Position numbers and translations under genes: made by a program. DNA of 45,540 nt from Caldilineaceae bacterium (lineage in GTDB: Bacteria > Chloroflexota > Anaerolineae > Caldilineales > Caldilineaceae), in contig JAJDZJ010000019.1 in NCBI GenBank assembly GCA_022824685.1, positions 1-45,540 on the forward strand, in the 5' to 3' direction. Positions within the stretch are counted from its first letter, which is position 1; every line of letters starts with the position of its first letter. Shown one piece after another: positions 7,687 through 15,231 of this stretch. The notes under the pieces are model-generated. The model did no database searches, was not told the DNA's origin, and worked only from the letters and a program-made list of their open reading frames with translations.

Positions 7687-7703
7687 TAACCTGAATTCGG
7701 AGT
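7687..7703 (+). repeat. left terminal inverted repeat
   Basis: TAACCTGAATTCGGAGT, a perfect inverted copy of 8196-8212. On the minus strand it reads into the rhamnosidase leader and supplies the only AGG near a ribosome-binding position for that gene. Confidence 0.85.
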
Positions 7704-8193: not shown

Positions 8194-9168
8194 TCACTCC
8201 GAATTCAGGTTATAGTCTATTGCATATCTCGCACCAGCAAGAAAACCTTCTGTCACTATGATTGCGTACATGTTGTCCAAGTAAGCGGCTGGGACTTCCG
8301 TTCGAGAAGGAAGAGGAAGGTTCATTTCTTCGTGCGTAACCATTTCTGGCCAGCGAAACCTCCACAGGAGACATTCCCTAAGGTTTGACAAGGCTTTCTG
8401 CTCTTCTTCAGTCACTACGATAAATTCGTCAAACAACTCAACATACAAGCAAAAGAGATAGCCACCATAGATCTGAACCACATTCATATAGTGAGCACTC
8501 ATAATCTCATTCTTGGCACTAAGAGTAACATTCGGCAGGACTCCCTGTTGGGGTGGGGACTTCCCCCAACCTAGGCTAAGCAAGACCCGAGGATTAAAGT
8601 GAACTAGCCCTGAAGTGAGCCGGTAGATAAAATCGTAAACGATCTCTAGGATTCCTGGGTCAGTTTTTTCAGCAATTGCTCTTGTTGACGGCTTGAGTCT
8701 TCGCCTGTTTGCGGTAAAGGATGGCCAACCATTGCTCCTCCAAAAGAGCGTGAGTTCATCGATCCACTTCACGCTTTCTGCCTGTGCTGGAGGCGAAGGC
8801 AGGATGGGCTGGAACGGACGAAATAACCGAAAAAAGGCGTGTTGGTCATTCAATTCGTTCAGGGCCTCAAGATTAGATAGGTGATTCACTACTATTTCGC
8901 GGCTTTCCTCCGGAACGCTAGAAAGAAAGCGCAATAGTATGATTTCTTCTGCTACTGCTCTAAGGGCTGGCATGAAAAAGAATGCCTCGGCTGTGTTTTC
9001 ACTTGCAGCGAGATCTACAAGCTCAAAGGCCTTGACAAAGGATGCCTTAAGGCATGTGGAAAAAGGATTCCGTCTATCAAAGTGTATCGCCGCTGTTCTG
9101 TCGATCAGCGGCTTAAGAGTCTTGAGTCTGGTAGCAAGTGGGGCAAGCATTTTAGTCATATTGGTCAC
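8194..9168 (-). CDS. unrecognised helical protein, 3' end supplied by an insertion element
   Basis: A 324-residue, mostly helical protein without signal peptide or membrane segment. [22 protein letters not shown] near residue 65 and [19 protein letters not shown] near residue 200 recall uncharacterised HEPN-like/DUF5677-type proteins, where an arginine-acidic helix and a late histidine are conserved; this resemblance is weak and unproved. Its last five residues (NLNSE) and the TGA stop are read from the right inverted repeat of the insertion element (8196-8212), so the natural C terminus was probably lost or changed. Base composition is AT-rich like the helicase operon, pointing to joint acquisition. 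Function unknown. Confidence 0.6.
8196..8212 (-). repeat. right terminal inverted repeat
   Basis: ACTCCGAATTCAGGTTA, perfect complement of 7687-7703. Read on the minus strand it encodes the last residues of the neighbouring gene, with the TGA stop at its inner edge. Confidence 0.85.
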
Positions 9169-9998: not shown

Positions 9999-10694
9999 CT
10001 AACCCCTGAATATTATTCCCTTGAGTCTTGATGCTTTTTCGGCTAGTTTTCGCACTTCATTTACCTGTGTTTCCAGTGCATTCAGACGCTGCAATATTTT
10101 TCCAGTGTCGGAGCTTGTCTCAGAAGTGAATTCCTTCTCCAAACTATCCATCCGCTGGACCAAGGCTCCACGAAGTTCTGCACCAACTTGCTCTGTGGTT
10201 GCTTGAGTTCCATTGGTGATACTCTTTTCCAGAATGTCAATTCGTTGAATTAGCGCTCCTCTTAATTCAGCACCGGCGCGTCCAGTGGCGGACTCAGTTC
10301 CGGCAGTAACCTCGCTTCCCAATTTGTCTATGTGCTGTATCAGCGCGGACTGCAGGTCTTTCCCAACCCGTTCTGTTGTGGTCTGGGTATTCTCTACCAG
10401 ATCTTCTCTTAGACCGTCCATTCGTTGAGAAAGAGCTGTTCGCATCTCTATTAGTAACTCCCTCATCTCTGATGCTCTCAAAGCGTCAATTACGCGACCG
10501 CTTAAGTCAACCAAGGACCCAATTTCAACAACAAGGTTTTCAACGGAATCTTGGAGCAATTGTGATCGTTTGCCAGTCTCATCCAATAGTTGTGCAGCTG
10601 TCTTCATTTGTCCCAACTCTTCGGAGATCCGCAAGATGCTTTCTTCCGCTTCAAGGATCGTTTCGCTAATGTCATCATTCGATTCTTGTGTCAT
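9999..10694 (-). CDS. coiled-coil protein with three 30-residue tandem repeats
   Basis: A 231-residue soluble protein predicted to be almost entirely helical. Residues 103-132, 133-162 and 163-192 are three near-identical 30-residue units with the pattern T-x-x-T-E-x-V-G-x-E-L-(R)-x-A-L-I-Q-R-I-D-x-L-E-K. A more divergent unit precedes them (~78-102) and a shortened one follows (LQRLNALETQVNEV). The spacing suits a long oligomeric coiled coil. The first 70 residues are acidic and also helical. The ATG at 10694 overlaps the last 20 bases of the nuclease-helicase gene, so the two are translationally coupled and probably work together. I recognise no named family; a scaffold or sensor role is an inference from shape and linkage only. 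Confidence 0.75.
   Translation of the reverse strand: MTQESNDDISETILEAEESILRISEELGQMKTAAQLLDETGKRSQLLQDSVENLVVEIGSLVDLSGRVIDALRASEMRELLIEMRTALSQRMDGLREDLVENTQTTTERVGKDLQSALIQHIDKLGSEVTAGTESATGRAGAELRGALIQRIDILEKSITNGTQATTEQVGAELRGALVQRMDSLEKEFTSETSSDTGKILQRLNALETQVNEVRKLAEKASRLKGIIFRG
10119..10388 (-). repeat. three 90-bp in-frame tandem repeats
   Basis: Codons 103-192 of the coiled-coil gene form three 90-bp units. The second and third are the most alike (AELRGALIQRID versus AELRGALVQRMD). Their similarity suggests expansion by slippage or unequal exchange. Confidence 0.75.
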
Positions 10695-13600
10695 CCTGTC
10701 CTCCTAACGGCTTCAAACTGTAGAATCCGCTAATCTCTCTGACGGTTTCAAAAACATTGGATGAAATTGCGTCGAGGGCAGCAAGCCGCACGCGATCGTC
10801 ATGTCTTCGCCCAACCTGAAGTAGATGGCGCGCAAAGTCCAAACCGTCTTCCCCGGCACACATGGATTTGGCAACACTACTCACTGCACCAGGGCGCCAG
10901 CGCATGATGTCCTGCAATAATTCAACCCGTATCCAGTCCATATTTAGTCTTTCATTGCGTGCCCAGACGAAAAGCGTCGCCATCTCCTCAAGCACACTCT
11001 GTTCGGTTTCCCCAGGGCTCGCCGCGCGGGCGCATACAGAGAGGTACCTTAACGCGATGTTTTCGGGGTCGGCTTCTAACATTCGACGCGTGGTACCAAT
11101 TAGACCACGCAGCTTTCCCAAATCGTCGCCATCTTTTTGCTTTTCCAAGTCATCTAGTACTCCTCTAACCCCTGCTAATCCGATCTGTCGGAAAGACTTA
11201 CGTCGCCATTCATTGAGATCCTTTGTGAACGGCGATTCCTCCAAATAGGCCAGAATCGAAGCACGGAAACTTTCGCTGTCTTCAAAGTCCCGGCACAGTT
11301 GCACCATGTTTCGAATTGCTTCTTTCCTTTTGGCGACCACCGCGTCGTAAATGAAGTCAACCAAAACGTCTACCGCTTGTTCCACCGCCTCCGAAAGGCC
11401 TTGGGCTTCTACCCGATTTACTTGCTGATGCACAAATCCTGGGAACTTGTACCTAGCAAGATATGTCGACAAACATTCACGAATCTTGTCGACGTCGCCG
11501 TCACCTGTTTCGACCAAGAACCACCCTTTCTGCCTCGGCTCCAACTCTACATAATGCACTGTGTAGTCATTCACGATGCCCAGAATCCTCAGCCGGTAGA
11601 TGCATTTCTCTCTTTGGCTACATTCTTCTTCGTTCTGAAATGGAATGTTTACAGTACTGTTACCGCCTCCGCTTCCGTAGACACTCTTCAGAAATTTTTG
11701 CCAAAGTTCGGTTAGTCTGCTCTTTTCTTCTTCCCGACCACTAAACGAATTGAGCAAGAAGTACAAGGGGATTAGTATGTCGGCCTGACTGCCCTTCTCT
11801 TGCATCGCCTTCAAATTAGCAGTGGCGTTCGAGTGATCAGGCTCATCAAGGATTTCTGATATCGCTTTGTCTGACCCTGCGTCAATATAGATTACTGTGC
11901 AGTGGGCCTGGTCTCCATCTCTGCCAGCGCGACCGGCCTCCTGATAAAACTGTTCCACCGATGCAGGCATGACGTAATGAATGGTATACCTAATATTTCT
12001 CTTGTCGATTCCCATTCCGAATGACTTTGTTGCTACGATTTCTCCCAGTTTGTTTTGAGAGAATCTCTGCTGTAATTCCCTTTTGTGCTTCTTCCAGAGT
12101 TCTCGCAATTCGCTCTCCGGAGGAGGACCATCCTTACCTTGGTGAAGGTGACTCCAATCGTTAGAGAAACTTCGCGGCACTTTCCCTCCATAATAGTTCC
12201 TGTGCCCCAGTGTTTTGGCAATCTGAGCAATGCCTAGTTTGCCATTCACGTGAGGACAGAACACAAGTCCACCCGTTGTCTTTTGGCCGTCAAGCCCTTC
12301 GAATTCTGCTGTGGTCATATTCAACATTTGCGGTAAGTCTTTACTAATCGAAAGCAGTGCCTCGGTCCGGCCCTTGTTTGTAATCGGTCGGACCGTAAAC
12401 TTCAACTCCTTCCTATCAAAGGAATCGGGACGGATGATTGCCTCTTCGGGGTCTATACGCAATTCCGCCTGCACATCTTCCAGTACAGCGTAGGATGCCG
12501 TGCCAGTAAGTGCGACTAAAGTTGGCACTGCCTCAGTATTGTGATCCTTACAATAGCGCTGCAAGCTCAAAGGGAGATTTAGGTATGCGGGCCGAAAATC
12601 ATGCCCCCATTCTGAGAGGCAATGTGCCTCGTCCAGAGCAACTAGGGGGATAGGATTGCGCCTCGTGACGTTCTGCAGTTCATCGCGGAATCTTTCTGAC
12701 TGCAATCTTTCGGGAGACACATAAACAAAATTCAATTTTCCTTCGGCCATTTCACTCATTGCTTTTTGAATGTCCTCAGTTTGACTCGAGATTCCTTCCG
12801 TTGAGTCTATGCACATCTCCTTCAGACTACGGACTTGGTCATCCATTAGGGAAACTATTGGATCTACATTTAGAGTCATTCCTGGCATGAGCATTCCAAC
12901 AAACTGATAAATTAGCGATTTACCGCCCCCAGTTGGCAGAAGCACGATTGTATGCTTACCTTGCAGCAGACGCGTAATGGATCGCACCTGCCCATTGTTG
13001 AATTTCCTTTTTCGAAACACTAATTGAAGGAAGCGTGTAAGAACATCCTCTGAGAGCTGGAGATCGTTTTCTGGCTGGTCATTTGTCCCGGGAGCCCATA
13101 GTAAGGCCCGATCAGTGCGACTGCCAATGGCACGTCTGATTCGTAGTGCATTAGAGGTCAGGCAAGGCGCCAGTTGTTCCAGTCGAGGACCGCAGTGCCC
13201 TTCTCCTAAGAGTAGGCTGTTTGAAATAACAGCATCGTATTCGCCATCCGCCCGATCGACGAATCTCACATAGTGGTCAGCGTCTCCAATCCCCTTCCCG
13301 CCTATCACTTCTAACTGGAAGTCCGGAGGTCCAATGCTCAAATTTGGCTGGACTGTCATGGTGATCTCCCAGAGCTCCCTTAGCATCTGGAAGGCGTCTG
13401 CTACAACTGGGATGTCTTCCTCTATGGCTAAGATCCTTTGTGGTCGAGAAGCGTCCAGAGCACCATGGCGATACATCATTACCAATCCACGCATACATCT
13501 CTGCAGTGCAAGAGGTCGGAGTAATAAATGCCAGGCTGCACGATGAATAAGAGAAGAATCCACTGCCTTTTTTGCAGAACCCAGTTGTGCCACTACTTCG

Positions 13601-13941
13601 AGTGATTGGAGTTCTTCCCCCTGGGCATCAGCCCATGCTGTACGAAGCCAATCATCAAGGCGGGAACGAACCTTCTCAGCCTCAACTCTCAATACCTTCC
13701 ATCCTCCTGCCTGCAAGGTACTGTCGCGAAATCTGTCCTTACTACGCTGGGATGGTTCAAGGTGCTGGTTGCCGTCGACTTCGATCACCCATCGAAGTCG
13801 ACTCATTTGAACCGCTAAGTCCACCCGATTGTCGGATAACGCGGTTGCTGCACCCCCACCCACCAAGTCTGTAATAAGGGCCTGTCGTTGAACGGCCCCA
13901 CTTGCACTAGGCCCTAACTTGGCAATTAGGCCTGCATACAA
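10675..13941 (-). CDS. nuclease-RecQ helicase fusion protein
   Basis: A 1088-residue two-part enzyme. Residues ~38-90 look like a DUF559/Vsr-type PD-(D/E)XK nuclease: RVDLAV (Asp41), WVIEVDGNQH (Glu54, Asp56), then a QR..DRFRD...AGGWKVLRVEA run. Residues ~300-700 form a RecQ-family helicase: LLPTGGGKS (338-342), VSLMDDQV, YVSPERL, DEAHCLSEWGHDFRP (DEAH 437-440, with the RecQ aromatic-rich loop), LTGTAS, ATKSFGMGIDKRNIRY and QEAGRAGRDGD (667-). A winged-helix-like CIYRLRILGIVNDYTV follows near 780, then ~300 helical residues. The likely role is ATP-driven unwinding and cleavage of DNA, probably in defence. The only upstream start is a TTG at 13941 with no good ribosome-binding site, three bases after an in-frame TAG. 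The N terminus probably continued into the upstream frame before mutation. It overlaps the coiled-coil gene by 20 bases. Confidence 0.85.
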   Translation of the reverse strand: MYAGLIAKLGPSASGAVQRQALITDLVGGGAATALSDNRVDLAVQMSRLRWVIEVDGNQHLEPSQRSKDRFRDSTLQAGGWKVLRVEAEKVRSRLDDWLRTAWADAQGEELQSLEVVAQLGSAKKAVDSSLIHRAAWHLLLRPLALQRCMRGLVMMYRHGALDASRPQRILAIEEDIPVVADAFQMLRELWEITMTVQPNLSIGPPDFQLEVIGGKGIGDADHYVRFVDRADGEYDAVISNSLLLGEGHCGPRLEQLAPCLTSNALRIRRAIGSRTDRALLWAPGTNDQPENDLQLSEDVLTRFLQLVFRKRKFNNGQVRSITRLLQGKHTIVLLPTGGGKSLIYQFVGMLMPGMTLNVDPIVSLMDDQVRSLKEMCIDSTEGISSQTEDIQKAMSEMAEGKLNFVYVSPERLQSERFRDELQNVTRRNPIPLVALDEAHCLSEWGHDFRPAYLNLPLSLQRYCKDHNTEAVPTLVALTGTASYAVLEDVQAELRIDPEEAIIRPDSFDRKELKFTVRPITNKGRTEALLSISKDLPQMLNMTTAEFEGLDGQKTTGGLVFCPHVNGKLGIAQIAKTLGHRNYYGGKVPRSFSNDWSHLHQGKDGPPPESELRELWKKHKRELQQRFSQNKLGEIVATKSFGMGIDKRNIRYTIHYVMPASVEQFYQEAGRAGRDGDQAHCTVIYIDAGSDKAISEILDEPDHSNATANLKAMQEKGSQADILIPLYFLLNSFSGREEEKSRLTELWQKFLKSVYGSGGGNSTVNIPFQNEEECSQREKCIYRLRILGIVNDYTVHYVELEPRQKGWFLVETGDGDVDKIRECLSTYLARYKFPGFVHQQVNRVEAQGLSEAVEQAVDVLVDFIYDAVVAKRKEAIRNMVQLCRDFEDSESFRASILAYLEESPFTKDLNEWRRKSFRQIGLAGVRGVLDDLEKQKDGDDLGKLRGLIGTTRRMLEADPENIALRYLSVCARAASPGETEQSVLEEMATLFVWARNERLNMDWIRVELLQDIMRWRPGAVSSVAKSMCAGEDGLDFARHLLQVGRRHDDRVRLAALDAISSNVFETVREISGFYSLKPLGGQDDTRIE

Positions 13942-13944
13942 GGC

Positions 13945-14452
13945 CTATTCTTCTGCACTACATATGTTCTGCAAGTCAGCTGGAAGAATCTGCCTAAGCG
14001 TAGTGCAGTCATCTTTCCATGGAAGGTCCAGCAAATCCTTTGCCGACTCTAGTAGTTGGAAAATGCTTCCTTCAGGCCATAGGTAATCGCTAATTGTGAA
14101 TCTGATCTCTTTCTCGTCCGTTTCTTCCCAACGCAGAAACTCGCTACCTAGGCCAGCAAGGAGGACTCGCTCCCAGTCTGGATCTACATATGTAGGATTG
14201 CCGCGGGCGGCAATTTTGTCGCAGACGGCAGTAATTGCCGCCAATGCGGGGTCGTCAGTCTCGGTAAAATCATGATAATCTGATTCGATTACTCCGTGCT
14301 GATTCGATTACTCCGTGCGCGTTAAATTGAAGCAACTCGTCCAAATGGGAGCGCCATTCTTCCTCTCCCAGATTGTCCAGAGAATCCCATACTCCCAAAC
14401 GACCTGAGGCCGTATATCTTACTCTGTTCATATTTGTCAGTTTGCCCTGCAT
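13945..14452 (-). pseudogene. broken 5' part of the nuclease-helicase gene (frameshift plus amber)
   Basis: From ATG 14452 the frame runs 51 codons (MNRVRYTASGRLGVWDSLDN onward), then enters a second copy of a 19-bp tandem repeat and stops at 14270. If one repeat copy is removed, the frame continues without a break through DYHDFTETDDPALAAITAV to AEE and a TAG at 13945-13947, giving about 162 codons. That TAG is in the same frame as the nuclease-helicase, and the residues around it (SAEE-stop-ALYAGLIAKLGP) read as one helix. I infer that 10675-14452 was once a single gene of about 1250 codons. The piece itself matches no family I know. It begins only 29 bases after the aldolase gene on the same strand. 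Confidence 0.7.
14281..14318 (+). repeat. perfect 19-bp tandem duplication
   Basis: TGATTCGATTACTCCGTGC occurs twice head to tail (14281-14299 and 14300-14318). Nineteen is not a multiple of three, so the second copy shifts the reading frame of the minus-strand gene. Loss of one copy restores the frame exactly. Confidence 0.95.
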
Positions 14453-14481: not shown

Positions 14482-15231
14482 TCACAACCCCGGGGCCACC
14501 TGCAACACCGTCACACCCATCTCGACGTATTTGTCCCGCTCCTCCGCGCTCGCCGCGCCCAAACTCACCTGCACAGGACTGTCCTTCATCTGCGCCAGCA
14601 CGTGGCCGATGCACTCGTCAACCGTATTGAACGGACTGTGCGGCAGACTCTCCATGCTGAACCGCAGGTCGTTCGGCCCGAATGCCAGCAGGTCGACGCC
14701 CGGCTTGGCCAGTTTGCCGGCGTTGATGACCGCCTCCACCGATTCCAGCTGGATCGCCAGAAAGCCGTTGCTGTTCCACCAGTCCGCGTAGGCAAGGCGG
14801 TCGATGGAGGCCGGGTCGGTCGGCTCGCCGAAGGCCCTCAGATTGCGGCGGTTGACTCCACCTGAGCTGCGGTGCCCCACTTGGGGGTAGTAAAAGTAGT
14901 CGATGGCCTCATCTACCTCGGCCGTAGTCTGAACTTCCGGCACCATGATGCCGGTCGGACCCAGATCGAGGAAGCGCCCGACCAAGTATGTGTGCCGAGT
15001 ATGTTGAATGCGGAACTGCACAGGGATCCCCAGCTTTTCGGCGTGCCCGCAGAAGTTTTCCAGGTCGATTTCACAAAAGGCCGTGTGCTGGCTATCTACG
15101 TAGACGAAGCTGTAGTCGCCCTGGGCCAGCAAATCTTCCAGCTGGGTCTGATTGAAATAAACCTGCGCGCCAACCCCAAAAATCAGTTCGCCGCTGTGTA
15201 TTCGTTCTTTCAGATTGGAAACGTCCGCCAT
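14482..15231 (-). CDS. HpcH/HpaI family aldolase
   Basis: A 249-residue class II pyruvate aldolase-type TIM barrel. Family landmarks are VYVDSQHTAF near residue 43, a PEVQ segment after GIMVP, QLESVEAV carrying the metal-binding glutamate, and FGPNDL with the metal-binding aspartate near residue 190. Members cleave 4-hydroxy-2-oxo acids to pyruvate or glyoxylate plus an aldehyde using Mg or Mn. It is the last gene of a long minus-strand string, 13 bases after the ThDP enzyme, so it may work on the same intermediate. A second, divergent aldolase lies at 27073. The AT-rich island begins immediately downstream. Confidence 0.88.
   Translation of the reverse strand: MADVSNLKERIHSGELIFGVGAQVYFNQTQLEDLLAQGDYSFVYVDSQHTAFCEIDLENFCGHAEKLGIPVQFRIQHTRHTYLVGRFLDLGPTGIMVPEVQTTAEVDEAIDYFYYPQVGHRSSGGVNRRNLRAFGEPTDPASIDRLAYADWWNSNGFLAIQLESVEAVINAGKLAKPGVDLLAFGPNDLRFSMESLPHSPFNTVDECIGHVLAQMKDSPVQVSLGAASAEERDKYVEMGVTVLQVAPGL

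Follow-up and report, generated by a model that had tools for sequence, protein, structure and literature searches.

Several described systems come close to the locus reported here. RqlH of the RqlHI system is a helicase combined with a phosphoribosyltransferase (PRTase) (PMC4670107). A system composed of DprA and a PRTase guards Escherichia coli against T7 and lambda (PMC9122126), and in SNIPE a nuclease held at the membrane cuts phage DNA while it is being injected and becomes toxic when the membrane segment is missing (PMC13190303). The locus compared with them lies in a 45,540-nucleotide stretch of DNA from a Caldilineaceae bacterium (contig JAJDZJ010000019.1, positions 1 to 45,540; hereafter called the window, whose positions are used throughout) and consists of two overlapping minus-strand genes, one for a nuclease-RecQ helicase remnant (10675-13941) and the other for a coiled-coil partner (9999-10694). 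They belong to a conserved two-gene module, which is well supported as real and is apparently unnamed. An undescribed nuclease-RecQ/coiled-coil module of the defense type is a reasonable reading of these sequences, and the best explanation that we can offer, on which our judgment is evenly balanced, is a membrane-tethered nuclease-helicase defense module that has decayed in the window. The pair was undescribed in the open-access literature, paywalled papers and preprints lying outside the search, and the main text of DefensePredictor mentions neither helicase nor DprA.

Domain organization of the nuclease-helicase

The helicase open reading frame (ORF) encodes 1,088 amino acids from a TTG start codon and overlaps the partner ORF by 20 bases (10675-10694). 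The original prediction had described this layout, with a DUF559/Vsr-like nuclease region containing Asp41, Glu54, and Asp56, a complete RecQ-family motor, and a partner built from 30-residue coiled-coil repeats, and the analyses described below bear out each of these elements. A PD-(D/E)XK-type nuclease domain resembling DUF559 and MTES_1575 occupies about residues 17 to 105 (13627-13893, minus strand), with D41, E54, D56, and H60 conserved. The DUF559 profile matches the whole protein with an E value of 1.4e-7 (31.7 bits, versus a Pfam cutoff of 20.6), and the N-terminal 108 residues alone, a profile search of which had been proposed as a check, match DUF559 at 5e-9 (36.4 bits, again exceeding the Pfam cutoff) and MTES_1575 at 1.4e-8, the latter with a score short of the cutoff of that family. 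D41, E54, D56, G57, H60, D69, and R72 are invariant among 17 aligned homologues. In the AlphaFold model, the nuclease region forms a strand-strand-helix-strand arrangement (residues 42 to 46, 49 to 56, 63 to 78, and 82 to 87), the second strand of which carries E54 and D56. The domain match with its D...ExD catalytic pattern places the region among the DUF559/MTES_1575 nucleases, and the model supports a nuclease fold at the N terminus, the lack of which would have counted against the original prediction.

The RecQ-family motor is located at about residues 295 to 700 (11842-13059, minus strand) and contains LLPTGGGKS, DEAHCLSEWGHDFR, ATKSFGMGIDK, and QEAGRAGRD, the motor signatures being invariant across the 17 homologues. 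The protein scores 260.7 bits with the RecQ subfamily profile TIGR00614 (cutoff, 219.8) and 274.2 bits with the housekeeping RecQ equivalog TIGR01389 (cutoff, 640.2), which makes it a member of the RecQ family falling below the level of the housekeeping enzyme. The AlphaFold model of the full helicase protein, based on 17 sequences, has a mean predicted local distance difference test (pLDDT) score of 77.7 and a predicted template modeling (pTM) score of 0.74. Its motor matches BLM with a Z score of 27.6 and a root mean square deviation of 3.0 Å over 391 residues, and RecQ motors were the sole returns of a solved-structure search with the model. Structure prediction, another of the checks proposed, thus yielded both the fold elements of the nuclease region and a BLM-like motor. 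The C-terminal helical region at about residues 845 to 1073 (10723-11409, minus strand) corresponds to no known Pfam family.

Conserved pairing with a coiled-coil gene

Plasmids, 84,980 species genomes, and genomes of the same genus, class, and phylum as the window were the sources of homologues. A single full-length protein as the query against genome contigs recovered no relatives; an alignment of the nuclease and linker worked. The family proteins (A) are about 1,100 to 1,560 residues long and start with a helical N-terminal region that is joined to a DUF559-type nuclease and a RecQ-family 3'-5' helicase. At every one of the 31 homologous loci where the downstream DNA can be read, a coiled-coil gene (encoding B) directly follows the helicase gene, its start lying anywhere from 62 bp ahead of the helicase stop codon to 102 bp beyond it. 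Four further loci, which stop less than 200 bp past the helicase, were left out of this count. As controls, 18 nuclease-less RecQ regions were taken from the genus, family, and class, and none of the 17 that could be judged has such a coiled-coil gene. The linkage to the coiled-coil gene, for which a survey of homologues had been suggested, is therefore a property of the family, and the opposite outcome, in which homologues would lie mostly in housekeeping repair contexts without the partner, was not observed.

The pairing spans Chloroflexota-like class mates, Rhodothermota, Bacteroidota, Thermomicrobiota, Bacillota, Pseudomonadota, Fidelibacterota, Ignavibacteriota, and Melainabacteria. In a tree based on the motor only, the nuclease-bearing proteins stand apart from ordinary RecQs with support of 100/99, and one protein (L086) was first grouped by its motor alone, its nuclease motif and its partner with a transmembrane (TM) tail being recognized afterwards. 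Two congeners, G410 and G414, contain second, divergent nuclease-RecQ/coiled-coil pairs elsewhere in the genome (L159, 6411-10668, and L160, 6955-11182), which have an extra N-terminal zinc-finger-like segment. A stop codon interrupts the gene in the second copy of G414.

The coiled-coil partner

The window partner has 231 amino acids, is built from four repeats of about 30 residues each, and ends in the tail SRLKGIIFRG. It is modeled by AlphaFold as all helix, with two long helices (residues 2 to 132 and 136 to 230; mean pLDDT, 72.6). The partners at the 31 loci are proline-poor, charged, helical proteins, and the heptad scores of the main partner set are mostly 0.5 to 6 standard deviations higher than those of shuffled sequences. 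The number of 30-residue repeats differs between congeners (window 9999-10694, L152, and L153), and the rod length varies as a result.

The original prediction missed that most relatives, as judged from sequence, have a partner of the membrane-tail type. Of the 31 partners, 20 have a strongly hydrophobic stretch of 19 residues, a TM helix, at the extreme C terminus, and 9, including that of the window, have a basic-hydrophobic tail instead; the remaining 2 are cut off by contig ends. Besides that of the window, such tails include SSKRKGLLL, AAAKKGLVF, TKKKGWFS, KKKKGWFA, and PRGLFGRRKG, and we guess from their composition that they may bind the membrane. The window pair thus has the downstream coiled-coil gene with a TM or basic-hydrophobic tail that characterizes the family. 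Decay as the cause of the missing TM helix in the window partner was considered and rejected, since the intact G415 and G408 loci and several others likewise have partners without a TM helix, which have the basic-hydrophobic tail in common with the window.

Distribution and mobility

The module is accessory and horizontally mobile. The helicase is present in 8 of 298 genomes of the class, and within the genus 3 of the 17 genomes have orthologues (the window genome, G415, and G408), in each case directly after an HpcH/HpaI aldolase gene (14482-15231 in the window). In the other genomes of the genus, other conserved genes come after the aldolase. The G415 insert is followed by a second aldolase 3' end, which is 365 bp long and 91.5% identical to the main copy, and in G401 a 365-bp duplicate of the aldolase end (95.6% identical) accompanies a different, smaller cargo. 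Inserts with different cargoes that are each trailed by a 365-bp aldolase-end copy suggest that the 3' end of the aldolase gene is a recurrent integration site in the genus. The window has no second copy of this 365-bp end (compare loci L152 and L154). Relative to G415, the synonymous divergence (dS) is 1.76 for the module and 0.92 for the adjacent aldolase, as expected of a separately exchanged segment.

Outside the class, plasmid copies were found in Rhodothermus, Salinibacter, Haliscomenobacter, Klebsiella, and E. coli, and the Klebsiella-type operon occurs in 7 of 5,426 E. coli genomes, with 3 chromosomal and 4 plasmid copies. The phage collection gave generic RecQ motor matches only, with 11 viral loci having no recognized nuclease-RecQ gene. 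The plasmid copies and the target-gene-end duplication flanking the G415 insert would suit a selfish mobile-element function, in which the pair would serve plasmid or integrative-element maintenance, or competition by excluding related elements, rather than act against phages. However, the module is also found on chromosomes without surrounding plasmid genes, and no relaxase or replication partner recurs beside it, and we consider this the least probable of the explanations weighed here.

Damage to the window copy

The 1,088-residue protein of the original prediction is a real ORF, but on the evidence of its sequence this frame is a truncated remnant of a native gene of about 1,240 residues, not the native gene itself. 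The ancestral start is the ATG at 14431-14429 (MNRVRYTASGRLGVWD...), which agrees with the N termini of the congeners and Rhodothermus, and the first 53 codons of the ancestral gene are read at 14270-14431 (minus strand). A perfect, frame-shifting 19-bp tandem duplication (14280-14317, without strand; copies 14280-14298 and 14299-14317) pushes the ancestral frame into a premature TGA at 14272-14270. The N-terminal region continues in the helicase frame at 13945-14244 (minus strand), where it includes the family motif RGxPT and closes at an in-frame TAG (13947-13945). The frame upstream of this TAG thus reads as the family N-terminal region (...RGNPTYVDPDWERVL...), and the family profile aligns over 10744-14250 straight across the one TAG. 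In the congeners G415 and G408 the genes are intact, with about 1,240 residues and the N termini MNRVRFTASGRLGVWD and MRRVRYTASGRLGVWD.

The ratios of nonsynonymous to synonymous divergence against G415 are 0.14 for the helicase ORF, 0.14 for the N-terminal stretch, and 0.15 for the partner, and the substitution pattern remains purifying upstream as well as downstream of the TAG, which indicates that the lesions are either recent or an assembly error. Sequencing or assembly error is an alternative cause of both lesions that it would take reads to exclude. Readthrough or recoding of the TAG, prompted by TAGs also seen in G415 and G414, was rejected and is not needed, because the G415 TAG is upstream of the start codon and the G415 and G408 genes are intact. 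Since the window copy is damaged, functional work is better done on intact relatives, among them the two-gene pair of Rhodothermus marinus (L006).

Genomic context and putative role

Defense is the best-supported role of the module and, judging from its genes and their neighbors, probably the correct one. For the two E. coli chromosomal copies inspected, the surrounding island is variable and also carries MZA and a type I restriction system. A type I restriction system is near the Salinibacter copy, HmaA/HmaB near the Vampirovibrio copy, a type I restriction enzyme near a Bacteroidales copy, and a PDC-S37/Mokosh-like protein near the Acinetobacter copy. The first gene of the Klebsiella operon encodes a DprA with a match to ShosA (1.9e-65), and in Klebsiella and E. 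coli HAD and a ShosT-like PRTase (2.3e-7) form part of the helicase N terminus; Acinetobacter has DprA, HAD, and PRTase as individual genes surrounding the pair. The operon of E. coli strain ET846 (L134) comprises DprA, a HAD-PRTase-nuclease-RecQ protein, and a TM coiled coil. The proposal of an undescribed defense module is thus strengthened by the conserved pairing, the defense neighbors, and the ShosTA-like parts, and has to be qualified in that the copy from which it was made is truncated.

The gammaproteobacterial members with DprA and PRTase parts also bear on the main rival, an abortive or toxin-antitoxin switch of the RqlHI/PsyrTA/ShosTA kind, in which a triggered nuclease-helicase would damage host DNA and kill the cell, in place of selective cleavage of phage DNA, and the coiled-coil protein, together with DprA where present, would restrain it. 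RqlI physically binds and restrains the genotoxic RecQ helicase in RqlHI (PMC4670107), and the decayed window copy and the G414 nonsense allele fit a costly gene. Nevertheless, neither a PRTase nor DprA is encoded close to most members, the window clade among them, and a membrane-tail rod is unlike known antitoxins, which makes such a switch unlikely. The RecQ motor, the DprA adjoining some members, and the ordinary chromosomal surroundings of some copies could likewise be accommodated by an accessory factor for repair or recombination, in the form of a membrane-associated RecQ with which the cell would process incoming DNA or stalled forks to its own benefit. This is quite improbable, given that the window genome already has two other RecQ-type loci, both ordinary RecQs, that the distribution is patchy and mobile, and that defense systems are neighbors in several genomes.

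For the membrane-tethered defense module, the following mechanism is proposed. B would assemble through its coiled coil, with its TM helix or basic-hydrophobic tail at the inner face of the cell membrane, and would bind A and hold it there. A would be loaded onto foreign DNA, such as that of a phage or plasmid, at entry or at the onset of replication, and its RecQ motor would unwind the DNA that its nuclease cuts. Tethering by B would also keep A off the chromosome. This model appears to be the simplest that uses all of the parts, and the tethering itself is plausible, although we place it slightly short of an even chance. More tentatively, the family may represent a widespread immune module that has no name yet: the nuclease-RecQ protein would be held in trans at the membrane by a separate rod with a tail anchor, foreign DNA would be cut and unwound at entry, and in gammaproteobacteria the module would have been joined with ShosTA.

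Several observations weigh against a membrane-tethered defense module. The link to defense loci is anecdotal, as the neighbors are examples with no matched control, and the chromosomal copies L052, L054, L064, and L088 adjoin ordinary genes. The relative L010 has the partner and no recognizable nuclease motif, and the window and eight other partners are without a TM helix. The functional role of the pair is a prediction from sequence. In addition, the PADLOC profile PDLC02868 already spans the architecture in the Klebsiella protein, which means that the family is not unseen by databases.

Sequence surrounding the module

The G+C content is 48 to 51% across about 8 to 14 kb and about 60% on either side, in agreement with the AT-rich block noticed originally. 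The insertion remnant proposed at its border was not borne out, as the two adjacent ORFs scanned had no transposase family match; the evidence for insertion is of another kind, coming from the genus comparison at the aldolase site and not from a remnant of an insertion sequence. Within this AT-rich block, immediately downstream of the module, lies a DUF5677 gene (8194-9168; E = 3e-7), which does not adjoin the module in the congeners. A perfect 17-bp inverted repeat (7687-7703 and 8196-8212, spaced by 492 bp) straddles the border between the start of a rhamnosidase gene and the end of the DUF5677 gene and may mark a small insertion.

Comparison with known systems

By its sequence features, the window module falls outside Hachiman, Dpd, RqlHI/PsyrTA, and SNIPE. 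Hachiman and Dpd, which were named as analogues in the original prediction, are not the closest. Hachiman has a similar nuclease-plus-helicase logic but uses another nuclease family and has no coiled-coil gene; the HamB match is weak (E = 0.023) and best in the motor, and no HamA was found in the five ORFs scanned. DpdF is also a RecQ-like helicase, but the window protein scores 164.9 bits with the NCBIfam DpdF profile against a cutoff of 550, and there is no Dpd partner gene among the window genes scanned. The DpdF-labeled PDLC02868 covers both the nuclease and the motor of the Klebsiella homologue and aligns nearly full-length to this nuclease-RecQ protein (L009, 5559-10232), for which reason annotation tools may call the family DpdF. 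The coiled coils of some partners are weakly similar to ZorA tails of Zorya (best, 2.8e-6, L046). However, the partners lack the length for a MotA/ExbB-like motor, none has more than a single TM helix, always C-terminal, and they occur without ZorB/ZorD; the window ORFs scanned gave no ZorA/B match.

RqlHI/PsyrTA shares the RecQ helicase core with the module, and ShosTA resembles it through the ShosA-like DprA and PRTase parts of the Klebsiella/E. coli and Acinetobacter members, a DprA-like partner being present in the relatives L009 and L049. Unlike the module, these systems have neither a DUF559 nuclease nor a coiled-coil partner with a membrane tail. The PsyrT profile scores 213.8 bits on the window helicase, with its best stretch in the motor only; this helicase has no PRTase Pfam match, and no DprA match was found in the window ORFs scanned. 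If the defense reading is correct, the joined ShosTA parts would help to show how DprA/PRTase systems are linked to effectors that process DNA, and the module can be tested directly in laboratory E. coli by means of the copies naturally present in E. coli and Klebsiella. A defense module would then extend across many bacterial phyla, filed as "RecQ family helicase" and "hypothetical protein" or under a DpdF-labeled profile.

The likeness to SNIPE (PMC13190303) is one of idea only, namely, a nuclease that is held at the membrane, where it acts on DNA entering the cell and its anchor keeps it in check. The SNIPE nuclease is an unrelated GIY-YIG enzyme without a helicase, and neither DUF4041 nor GIY-YIG is among the Pfam matches of the window ORFs scanned. 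In SNIPE the anchor is on the same chain as the nuclease, whereas in the module it would be a separate coiled-coil protein, and the module would be a two-protein analogue of such membrane nucleases that also has a processive motor.

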